NCBI GenBank assembly: GCA_934654795.1
Contig: CAKUGT010000004.1
Coordinates: 19,403-83,402, forward strand
DNA length: 64,000 bases
Origin: an uncultured Collinsella sp.
GTDB taxonomy: Bacteria > Actinomycetota > Coriobacteriia > Coriobacteriales > Coriobacteriaceae
Reading direction: 5' to 3'
In this document: positions 16,574-40,251 of the stretch, one piece after another
Position numbering within the stretch: position 1 is the first letter of the stretch
Layout: each line of letters begins with the position of its first letter
Program-made: the position numbers and the translations under genes
The notes under the pieces: model-generated
Database searches by the model: none
What the model saw: only the letters and a program-made list of their open reading frames with translations
Told to the model about the DNA's origin: nothing

Positions 16574-18249
16574 TGAAGGAGCTTTCCGAGGTCCTGCAGG
16601 ATTGGGAGGCCGTGATTGGCCTGGAGATCCACACCGAGCTCACCGCACTCGACACCAAGATGTTCTGCAACTGCAGGCTCAGCCACGATGACGAGCCCAA
16701 CGCCAACGTGTGCCCGGTGTGCCTGGGCCTGCCCGGTGCCCTGCCGGTGCCCAACAAGCGCGCCATCGAGAGCATCGTCAAGGCGGGTCTGGCCACCAAC
16801 TGCGAGATCCAGCGCCACTCGATGTTCTACCGCAAGCACTACTTCTATCCCGACATGGCCAAGAACTTCCAGACCACGCAGGGTCCGGTCGCCTTTGCCA
16901 TGTACGGCCATCTGGACCTGGACGTGACCGGTCGCGGTGCCGCCGAGCGCCCCGACTGCGCGTTTGGCGAGGCCGAGGCTCAGAGCCTGGCGAGCGCTTC
17001 GGCCAATGCCGAGGGCCTGTCCACGTCCATGTCGTCGACCATGCGCGAGGGCAACCAGCGCGCCGGTCACCTGGCCAGCTACGACGCGTCCAACCTGCAG
17101 ATGCCCGAGCGCCGCGAGGACGGCTCCTACACGGTGCCCATCCGCATCCTGCGCATCCATATGGAGGAGGACGCCGCCAAGATGGTGCACGTGGGCGGTG
17201 CCGAGGGCCGCATTACCGCCGCGGCCGAGTCGCTCGTCGACTACAACCGCTGTGGCACGCCTTTGATTGAGCTCGTGACTGAGCCCGATCTGCGCACGCC
17301 TGAGGAAGCGCGCCTGTTTATGGAGAAGCTCCGTCGCATCTTTGTGACGCTGGGCATTTCCGACTGCTCCATGGAGAAGGGCTCCATGCGCTGCGACGGC
17401 AACGTGTCGCTGCGTCGCCGCGGCGAGACCAAGCTGGGCACCAAGACCGAGCTCAAGAACCTCAACTCGTTTAAGAGTCTGCACGACGGCCTTGCCTACG
17501 AGATCTGCCGCCAGGCCGAGGTGCTCGAGGAGGGCGGCATCATCTATCAGGAGACCCGCCACTGGGAGCCCAGCCGCAAGCGCACCGTGGTCATGCGTGT
17601 GAAGGAGACGGCCGACGACTATCGTCTGTTCCCCGATCCCGACCTGGCGCCGTTCGATCTGGACGACGAGTTTATCGACCGCTGCCGTGGTGAGATTCCC
17701 GAGCTGCCCGATGCCAAGCGCGCCCGTTTTGAGGCCGACTTTGGCATTAAGGCGGCAGATGCCGAGCAGATTGCCGGCGACCCCGAGTTTGCCGACTTCT
17801 TTGAGGCCGCCGCTGCCGGTATGGCCGGCAAGGAGGCCCAGACGGTCGCAAACCTGCTGGTCAACGAGATGATTGCCTACCTTAAGGGCGCGGGCGTGTC
17901 GCTTGCCGAGTCCGGCATTGCACCGGCTCAGGTGGCCGCACTTGCCAAGCTGCTGGCGACCGATGCCATCAGCTCCAACCAGGCGCACGAGGTGTTTGAG
18001 GCCATGGCCCAGACCGGCGACGACCCCAACAAGATCGTCGACGAGCGCGGTATGCGTCAGGTGAGCGATGCCGGCGCACTGCAGCCGATCGTGGACGAGG
18101 TGCTGTCAAGCTGTGCCGAGCAGGCGCAACAGTACCGCGATGGCAACCAGAAGGTCATCGGCTTTTTGGTGGGCCAGTGCATGAAGGCGAGCCGCGGCAA
18201 GGGCAACCCGAAGCTCTTCAACGAGTTGCTGAGAACGTCGCTCTCGTAA
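16573..18249 (+). CDS. gatB: Asp-tRNA(Asn)/Glu-tRNA(Gln) amidotransferase subunit B
   Basis: This subunit binds the misacylated tRNA, activates its carboxyl group with ATP and receives ammonia from GatA. The family signature VIGLEIHTEL is near the N-terminus (residues 15-24). Zn-type cysteines lie in FCNC and CPVCLG. The kinase core has YRKHYFYPDMAKNFQ, and the HMEEDAAK and NRCGTPLIE motifs follow. The C-terminal helical and YqeY-like tail domain runs from about 430 to 558. The length of 558 is somewhat above the usual 475-500. The stop is directly followed by the structured element at 18250. Confidence 0.96.
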   Translation: MKELSEVLQDWEAVIGLEIHTELTALDTKMFCNCRLSHDDEPNANVCPVCLGLPGALPVPNKRAIESIVKAGLATNCEIQRHSMFYRKHYFYPDMAKNFQTTQGPVAFAMYGHLDLDVTGRGAAERPDCAFGEAEAQSLASASANAEGLSTSMSSTMREGNQRAGHLASYDASNLQMPERREDGSYTVPIRILRIHMEEDAAKMVHVGGAEGRITAAAESLVDYNRCGTPLIELVTEPDLRTPEEARLFMEKLRRIFVTLGISDCSMEKGSMRCDGNVSLRRRGETKLGTKTELKNLNSFKSLHDGLAYEICRQAEVLEEGGIIYQETRHWEPSRKRTVVMRVKETADDYRLFPDPDLAPFDLDDEFIDRCRGEIPELPDAKRARFEADFGIKAADAEQIAGDPEFADFFEAAAAGMAGKEAQTVANLLVNEMIAYLKGAGVSLAESGIAPAQVAALAKLLATDAISSNQAHEVFEAMAQTGDDPNKIVDERGMRQVSDAGALQPIVDEVLSSCAEQAQQYRDGNQKVIGFLVGQCMKASRGKGNPKLFNELLRTSLS

Positions 18250-18397
18250 GCGGGAACCCGGGAGCCCCGGCAGGGCGGGTGCTTCCTCAAAATTTCGGAC
18301 AGTCCTGCGCAAGACGAAGGCCACATTAAGTGGCCTTCTTTGCGTGCGGAACTCATTTTGAGCAAACACCCGCCCTGCCGGGGCTCCCGGGTTCCGC
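18250..18397 (+). other. Candidate structured RNA element (family E, copy 1) after gatB
   Basis: A 148-base nested hairpin starting one base after the gatB stop. Outer arms such as AACCCGGGAGCCCCGGCAGG pair perfectly; CTCAAAAT pairs with ATTTTGAG inside; an apical GAAGGCCAC/GTGGCCTTC stem closes on ATTAA. Internal-loop blocks TCGGACAGTCCTG, CACATTAAGTG and CGTGCGGAACTC are shared with the element at 40118-40251, whose helices have different but still paired sequences. Known terminators do not need such conserved loops. A structured RNA or a mobile palindromic unit are the main options. Confidence 0.55.
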
Positions 18398-18471
18398 TAC
18401 GACTCGGCCGTTCGGGTCAGGTGGGCTGAATGAAATAGAGCGAACGAGGGCGCCGGCGGCGCCCTCGTTCT

Positions 18472-39950: not shown

Positions 39951-40117
39951 GGGCCAACCTCCTAGCAACAAAAAAGCGACTCCTCCCAAAAGAAGAGCCG
40001 CAACCAGCATATATCAGAAAAAGAACCGCTCCAACGCCAAACCGCCATACCAACCAAGTGGTGCAGGAGCGAAGCAACTGCAATCGGGATGGAACCCAAC
40101 CGAGGTCCCGATGTGCG

Positions 40118-40251
40118 GGAGCCCCGGGGAGGGCAAATATATAAGGTCGATCGCGAGTTCCGCACGAGCCGGAGAGCACTTAATGTGCTCTCCGTGCGAG
40201 TCAGGACTGTCCGAGCAGGCGACCTTATATATTCGCCCTCCCCGGGGCTCC
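40118..40251 (-). other. Candidate structured RNA element (family E, copy 2) after the DUF711 gene
   Basis: A 134-base nested hairpin on the minus strand, beginning 16 bases after the DUF711 stop. The outer 32-base arms (GGAGCCCCGGGGAGGGC plus an AATATATAAGGTCG part) pair with one mismatch. The apical GGAGAGCAC/GTGCTCTCC stem holds ATTAA. The blocks TCGGACAGTCCTG, CACATTAAGTG and CGTGCGGAACTC are the same as in the element at 18250, while the helices between them differ. Confidence 0.55.

Follow-up and report, generated by a model that had tools for sequence, protein, structure and literature searches.

A conserved-core hairpin family in Collinsella and its relatives, possibly a dispersed palindromic DNA element

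Several described systems come close to the hairpins analysed here. REP/BIME sequences, which go with the Y1 protein RAYT, are likewise dispersed intergenic hairpins in tens of copies and often in opposed pairs. However, as far as the accessible part of that literature describes them, they carry GTAG/CGTC tags, unlike the present family, in which the core is central, the arms of Coriobacteriia are far longer and locus-specific, and Y1 is missing from many carriers. The REP literature examined contained no Collinsella, Eggerthella or like names. Quasipalindromes and other template-switch hairpins share with the present family perfect arms, wholesale arm change and inversion of the spacer or loop. 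In the accessible text of two such studies, one describes arm homogenisation with spacer inversion (PMC8604942) and the other perfect stems produced in one step together with loop inversion (PMC8794818). Those events are mutations at any inverted repeat, whereas the present family has one conserved core that occupies tens of sites, in more than one phylum. MITEs and small palindromic repeats are also small, non-coding and multi-copy, and the planctomycete copies of our family resemble them in having common arms and tandem arrays, but the Coriobacteriia element keeps its centre and varies its ends. Finally, Collinsella-1 (RF01700) is likewise a candidate RNA in Actinobacteria (PMC2864571, accessible part), but it matched neither of our hairpins.

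The window analysed here is a stretch of 64,000 nucleotides from an uncultured Collinsella sp. An initial annotation of its sequence had pointed to two nested hairpins sharing three blocks, and direct reading of the sequence found both hairpins and all three blocks where they had been placed. Zero-mismatch matches to CGGACAGTCCTG, GTGCGGAACTC and CACATTAAGTG in the 64-kb window were confined to the two copies. Copy 1 (18250-18397, + strand) begins 1 base 3′ of the gatB stop codon (TAA, 18247-18249), and copy 2 (40251-40118, − strand) begins 16 bases 3′ of the stop codon (TAG, 40270-40268) of a DUF711-family gene. Each lies in the direction of its gene, in agreement with the spacing of 1-16 bases given earlier. 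The 5′ outer arm of copy 1 (18250..18294) pairs with its 3′ outer arm (18355..18397) around a core (18295..18354) that contains CGGACAGTCCTG (18296-18307), an apical hairpin with CACATTAAGTG (18322-18332), and GTGCGGAACTC (18344-18354). On the − strand, the outer arms of copy 2 (5′, 40214..40251; 3′, 40118..40154) pair in the same manner around a core (40155..40213) in which block matches located the three common blocks. Each copy is predicted to fold as one long hairpin, and the helices differ between the copies but stay paired in both predicted folds, as had been proposed. The RNA folding minimum free energies were −111.8 and −97.4 kcal/mol for copies 1 and 2 (z = −13.5 and −12.0; none of 200 shuffles equalled them), and folding as DNA gave z = −12.4 and −11.3.

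A strand-asymmetric core, RRACAGTCCT ... TGCGGAACT, placed around a lineage-specific inner stem, recurs across phyla. The common plan is: outer arm - GCTCRR - ACAGTCCT(CG) - inner stem - (C)TGCGGAACT - CGC - outer arm. In predicted folds, AGTCC and GGaACT can pair around one bulged A. The inner part takes several forms in Coriobacteriia, and the outer arms there are locus-specific, nearly perfect inverted repeats. The conserved terminal inverted repeats of MITEs were thus not found in Coriobacteriia; planctomycete metagenome-assembled genomes (MAGs) show the opposite, with arms common to different copies.

The two copies belong to a multi-copy family with a conserved core. A covariance model built from nine copies (R1) matched 39 of 43 genomes of the genus and 111 of 296 genomes (30 of 125 genera) of the class Coriobacteriia, these tallies including opposite-strand echoes of the palindrome. 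One R1 match (L097) had no core at the reported place, so the low-score matches may include false ones. In the complete genome G059, R1 gave 46 matches at E ≤0.1, of which the best 31 (E ≤2e-10) were distinct places and most of the remainder were opposite-strand echoes. Of 58 related genomes, 20 contained the simple pattern CGGACAGTCCTN{10,40}CACATTAAGTG, every one of them within the genus, and none contained its reversed control. A second model, R2, built from 84 copies, matched copy 1 at 18280-18369 (+, 89.5 bits) and copy 2 at 40140-40228 (−, 89.9 bits); among 396 genomes of the phylum it matched 25, all inside the class.

The family apparently has no earlier description. No account of it was found in the accessible main-text literature that was searched. 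At gathering score, Rfam gave only one tmRNA and one tRNA in the whole window, and neither hairpin corresponded to an Rfam family at gathering or relaxed score, in line with the earlier statement that no known riboswitch or ribozyme was recognised. The best relaxed-score match to copy 1 was Spy1786666 (RF02591), a weak likeness in the 3′ half (21.4 bits, E = 0.057) that lies far under the 64-bit gathering score of that family. ACAGUCCU, which may resemble the hairpin ribozyme, had no match in Rfam. No known insertion element was encountered in Rfam, in the phage and plasmid collections or in the search for the Y1 transposase family. In the plasmid collection the element occurred in a single record, a Collinsella aerofaciens replicon of 0.9 Mb whose genes are ordinary chromosomal ones. 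This large family spans several phyla, its copies neighbour ordinary genes in common gut bacteria, and neither Rfam nor the literature searched has a name for it.

Variable helices that enclose two short, invariant strands of an internal loop are what a structured RNA might present. According to this explanation, the core would act in 3′ UTRs, or in 5′ leaders on the opposite strand, as a functional internal loop serving protein binding, processing or a ribozyme-like act, and the helices would need only to pair. We regard it as a possible but rather improbable account. The strong covariation speaks for it: in alignment A5 (84 rows, 82 distinct), whose rows were aligned to the structure and are thereby biased toward it, 94.8% of cells were paired against 68.5% after shuffling and 35-49% in slid controls, and double changes occurred in 23 of 28 pairs. 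Further pair types were not in excess (65, against 66.0 in shuffles). In a structure-free test of 117 copies, orthologues included, the median score of a copy's own arms was 52, versus 13 for arms taken from different copies.

Pairing that is kept as RNA is expected to admit G.U far above A.C; no control RNA was counted here. Among isolated mismatches, each context being counted once, there were 23 G.U and 24 A.C at 20-65 nt from the core, and 9 G.U and 16 A.C at 8-20 nt. Division by the strand of the upstream gene gave G.U/A.C ratios of 14/15 (sense), 5/7 (antisense) and 4/2 (unclear). Within A5 the outer pairs 1-9 gave 10/20, the core pairs 2/1 and the middle pairs 10-15 gave 38/31, about 30 of these 38 coming from a single pair, which reads U.G in 30 rows; the lean toward G.U is limited to these middle pairs. 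The apical helix varies almost without G.U (2 G.U and 0 A.C in 738 cells). The counts were 13/22 outside Coriobacteriia and 15/35 in a second Coriobacteriia sample, and inherited positions inflate some of the figures. On this strand, therefore, no clear preference for G.U over A.C was found, A.C being similar or commoner in most counts, which argues against a structured RNA. An excess of A.C on one strand is an excess of G.U on its complement, so the counts are compatible with an RNA on the opposite strand. In the 3′ flanks of 40 copies, neither strand was enriched in sigma-70-like promoters, and this, like the lack of an Rfam family, counts against a structured RNA. The G.U versus A.C count is a simple test that other searches for RNA motifs could use.

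Genomic position bears on the structured RNA and on a further explanation, that of ordinary mRNA-end hairpins, i.e. terminators or stabilisers that are alike by descent. In G059, according to a home-made gene caller, 15 of 30 copies have a coding end 36-64 nt 5′ of the core, and the nearest coding end on the 3′ side of the core is never closer than 89 nt (30 of 30). Three annotated 50-kb stretches of the C. aerofaciens replicon contain four strong copies. Three of them come after a gene in sense, with its stop codon 33-42 nt ahead of the model start, and the fourth lies at a distance of 393 nt from a gene start. For 162 copies, orthologues included, the gene on the 5′ side was sense in 102, antisense in 41 and unclear in 19. 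The many copies in sense after a stop codon, and the convergent genes that often have one copy each, suit a structured RNA, whereas the antisense gene starts located 5′ of about a quarter of the copies (41/162) do not. Mere mRNA-end hairpins would also sit just past stop codons, as these copies do, and by eye a plain hairpin is seen at the copy-2 site of four genomes that lack the element there (G017, G031, G026 and G024). We nevertheless consider this explanation unlikely. Separate terminator-like hairpins with T-rich tails, found by a consensus scan of both strands, lie beyond both window copies (18442..18470, +, beyond copy 1; 39976..40001, −, beyond copy 2) and are distinct from them. Neither copy is itself followed by a T run in the window, as a short intrinsic terminator stem would be. 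The terminator scan did not report the element, although its loop limit of 8 would hide it. In addition, termination needs no core kept across phyla, and copies antisense at gene starts do not fit an mRNA end.

Opposed copy pairs were observed where genes converge, and in some of these a hairpin separates the two copies. In one such pair (L214 of G032, copies at about 1232 and 3461) the copies are about 2.1 kb apart, versus about 190 bases in G012 (L215), and enclose two ORFs of 287 and 342 aa. An AbiE-like identity was considered for these and dropped; neither has a Pfam match.

Comparison of orthologous loci revealed that arms are exchanged as blocks. A gatB match was obtained in 42 of 43 genomes, and 30 of the loci were compared (22 close and 8 more distant). 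The element is present in 21 of the close loci, and the other (G061) stops at a contig end; six distant loci have no element and two were unread. The 21 carriers show four arm alleles (in 9, 7, 4 and 1 genomes) between like flanks, with the closing pairs and little else in common; G025 has a shortened 3′ arm. At the copy-2 locus, 20 of 22 close loci carry the element and two stop at contig ends, while in G009, G018, G062 and G065 the element is present with different arms. The G059 copy at this locus combines one arm from each of two alleles, as expected of a recombinant. A third locus, L073, retains the whole or a partial element in 19 of 21 loci; G064 has lost it together with one arm and G030 is unreadable. 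The core of G059 at L073 is inverted between its arms, versus the opposite orientation in 18 orthologues. Changes inside one arm allele, counted as distinct changes over the three loci, were one-sided in 82 cases, 31 of which stem from a cluster with the truncated G025 copy, and two-sided in 12, of which 10 were Watson-Crick. The large excess of one-sided changes indicates that arms are not quickly repaired; taken together, the loci suggest that arms are born matched and exchanged whole. No clean close empty site and no insertion footprint were found at these loci; nearly all genomes of the close clade have the element at the loci examined, so that movement was not seen.

The pairing therefore looks to be kept at the DNA level and not by structured RNA. 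The initial annotation had taken conserved loops and compensated helices as the mark of a structured RNA; this is not supported, since the arms show no clear G.U preference and are swapped in blocks and the core can be inverted. Of its two labels, a palindromic element family fits better than a structured RNA, and what stands of its reading is the multi-copy family with a conserved core, the compensated helices and the lack of an Rfam match. Three outcomes that it had named as refuting, namely a total of two copies, missing covariation and a match in Rfam, did not occur. Strong covariation, often taken to prove a functional RNA, here seems to be the product of DNA-level palindrome turnover.

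Two side observations were made at gatB. A half-element lies 3′ of the gene in L129 (G059), L131, L133, L136 and L143; it starts exactly at GGAACTC after ...CCATTGTTTT..., and its arms are of a different allele from those of the preceding full copy. G026 (L147) has a short, plain, core-less hairpin like the outermost allele-a arms, which may be either a pre-insertion state or a deletion.

We see an even chance that the two hairpins represent a palindromic DNA element dispersed between genes, with arms that are created when DNA synthesis folds back and switches template. The core would fold as single-stranded DNA, and DNA synthesis reaching it would fold back and copy the flank just made, i.e. 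switch template. Such a fold-back would give the copy a fresh, perfect and local arm, and it would also permit inversion of the core. More speculatively, a factor may recognise the folded core and spread the element. An effect on mRNA, such as 3′-end protection or insulation, would be secondary. This account is favoured by the many copies in several phyla, the fit of each copy's own arms, the lack of a clear G.U preference, the block exchange of arms, the inverted core, the unshared outer arms of Coriobacteriia, the inverted gene ends at a few loci and the published template-switch studies. Weighing against it are the rarity of those inverted gene ends, the prevalence of one-sided arm changes, the common arms of planctomycete copies, the failure to find an insertion footprint or a partner protein, and the possible RNA on the complementary strand. 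By analogy with template-switch mutations, we infer a step from such a mutation to what may be a self-arming mobile element. A bolder and doubtful proposal is that the phylum-crossing core serves as a snap-back primer, the element carrying its centre only and writing inverted neighbour DNA as arms at each landing site. If fold-back at the core is true, a mobile element can spread with its centre alone.

Ectopic conversion, considered as another source of arms, was rejected for Coriobacteriia, in which outer arms were unshared between non-orthologous copies. Among 267 copies, a comparison that set aside loci L269-L434, 471 pairs had a common outer-arm 15-mer; 12 of them had no common flanks, and these were eight planctomycete-type pairs and four at the inverted L073 locus. 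Inverted copies of neighbouring coding sequence were found at some places. At the copy-2 locus, a decayed, inverted repeat of the last ~110 bases of the gene lies past the 3′ arm in G009, G018, G062 and G065 (z = 6.6-7.7). This inverted gene end is absent in four non-carriers (z = −0.6 to 0.5) and not significant in the close clade that includes the window (z = −0.7 to 1.4); G032 and G005 (no stop motif) and G061 and G001 (contig ends) were outside the comparison. At gatB the top carrier reached a non-significant z of 2.8, and the non-carrier G018 reached 2.7. At L060 it is the gene start that recurs inverted.

A wider count gave inverted coding copies with z > 3 in 11 of 68 cases, versus 1 of 68 in direct orientation and 0 of 150 cross pairs, copies with an opposed copy downstream being omitted (14 of 82 in a similarly built count). 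Two of the 11 (L099 and L111) were dropped, as they read as convergent paralogues, which leaves 9 of 66. Four of these nine (L055, L176, L179 and L180) are one locus, so that six loci remain, L113 among them weak. In a looser count, 14 of 88 were above the 95th and 11 of 88 above the 99th percentile of cross pairs. In successive 50-nt bands, 12, 9, 3, 6 and 4 of 68 exceeded the 95th percentile, with 3.4 expected. In a second sample, inverted matches numbered 4 of 74 and those in direct orientation 8 of 74, with 0 of 15 outside Coriobacteriia. We consider inverted gene ends beyond the arm genuine at a few loci, but not an established feature of the family as a whole.

The core with paired arms was also found in genomes labelled planctomycete, Hydrogenedentota and Bdellovibrio, in up to 43 copies. 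A contig scan for ACAGTCCTN{30,58}TGCGGAACT returned at least 120 stretches, a sample only, in which 90 of 124 sites had paired arms near the motif and 34 had none. The 90 comprise 70 sites that are Coriobacteriia or unassigned and 20 classed as other phyla, a class that rests on the record label or on the inner stem, with MAG labels that may be wrong and 10 of 21 loci carrying no label. The labels include Singulisphaera MAGs, Hydrogenedentota, Bdellovibrio and Latescibacterota. Bases left unfixed by the pattern agree between these 20 sites: CTCRR precedes in 20, CGC, GCGC or CCGC follows in 18, and CG stands after CCT in 18. The same three counts were 0, 0 and 3 in 46 pattern matches on viral contigs, none of which had paired arms, and the phage collection had no match to the element; carriage by phages was therefore rejected.

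The pattern RACAGTCCTN{25,55}TGCGGAACT occurred 28, 43 and 34 times in two Singulisphaera-labelled MAGs and one genome with the same inner stem, 17 times in Hydrogenedentota, three times in Bdellovibrio, and 6, 6, 3, 3, 2, 1 and 0 times in further genomes of other-phyla loci; the reversed pattern gave 0 in all 12 genomes. Inner stems are alike inside one of these genomes and differ among lineages. When ten other-phyla loci were compared with Rfam, the only overlap with the element was a chance-level one to mir-4874 (E = 0.56), far under the cut-off. The Singulisphaera-labelled MAGs and their relative also contain direct tandem repeats (L278:5491-5846 and L465-L468), for example two 178-base units that are 98% alike. 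Two pattern matches without paired arms lie on one contig of Propionigenium maris (L308), possibly by chance or as part of a different repeat.

A partner that moves the element was sought among neighbouring genes and transposases. No gene family recurs across phyla beside the copies in 44 chosen loci; the widest neighbour family occurred at five Coriobacteriia loci and all others at two, and no partner protein was found. In a REP/RAYT system, a Y1 tyrosine transposase would move the hairpins. The intergenic placement, the tens of copies and the opposed pairs are in keeping with this, and a Y1_Tnp protein is present in 37 of 43 genomes of the genus. However, Y1_Tnp was not found in the carriers G006, G034 and G033, and it is present in G016, which has no R1 element match. 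Of 20 further carriers, 10 likewise gave no Y1_Tnp match (G129, G125, G253, G673, G674, G684 and G675 are examples), although MAGs may be incomplete and old copies may have outlived a lost gene. We hold this explanation to be very improbable for the present family. A different repeat of about 45-50 bases (L073:1322-1368 of G059; query 193-239), with many partial matches in most close genomes of the genus, is REP-like and is perhaps tied to Y1 proteins of 250-350 aa.
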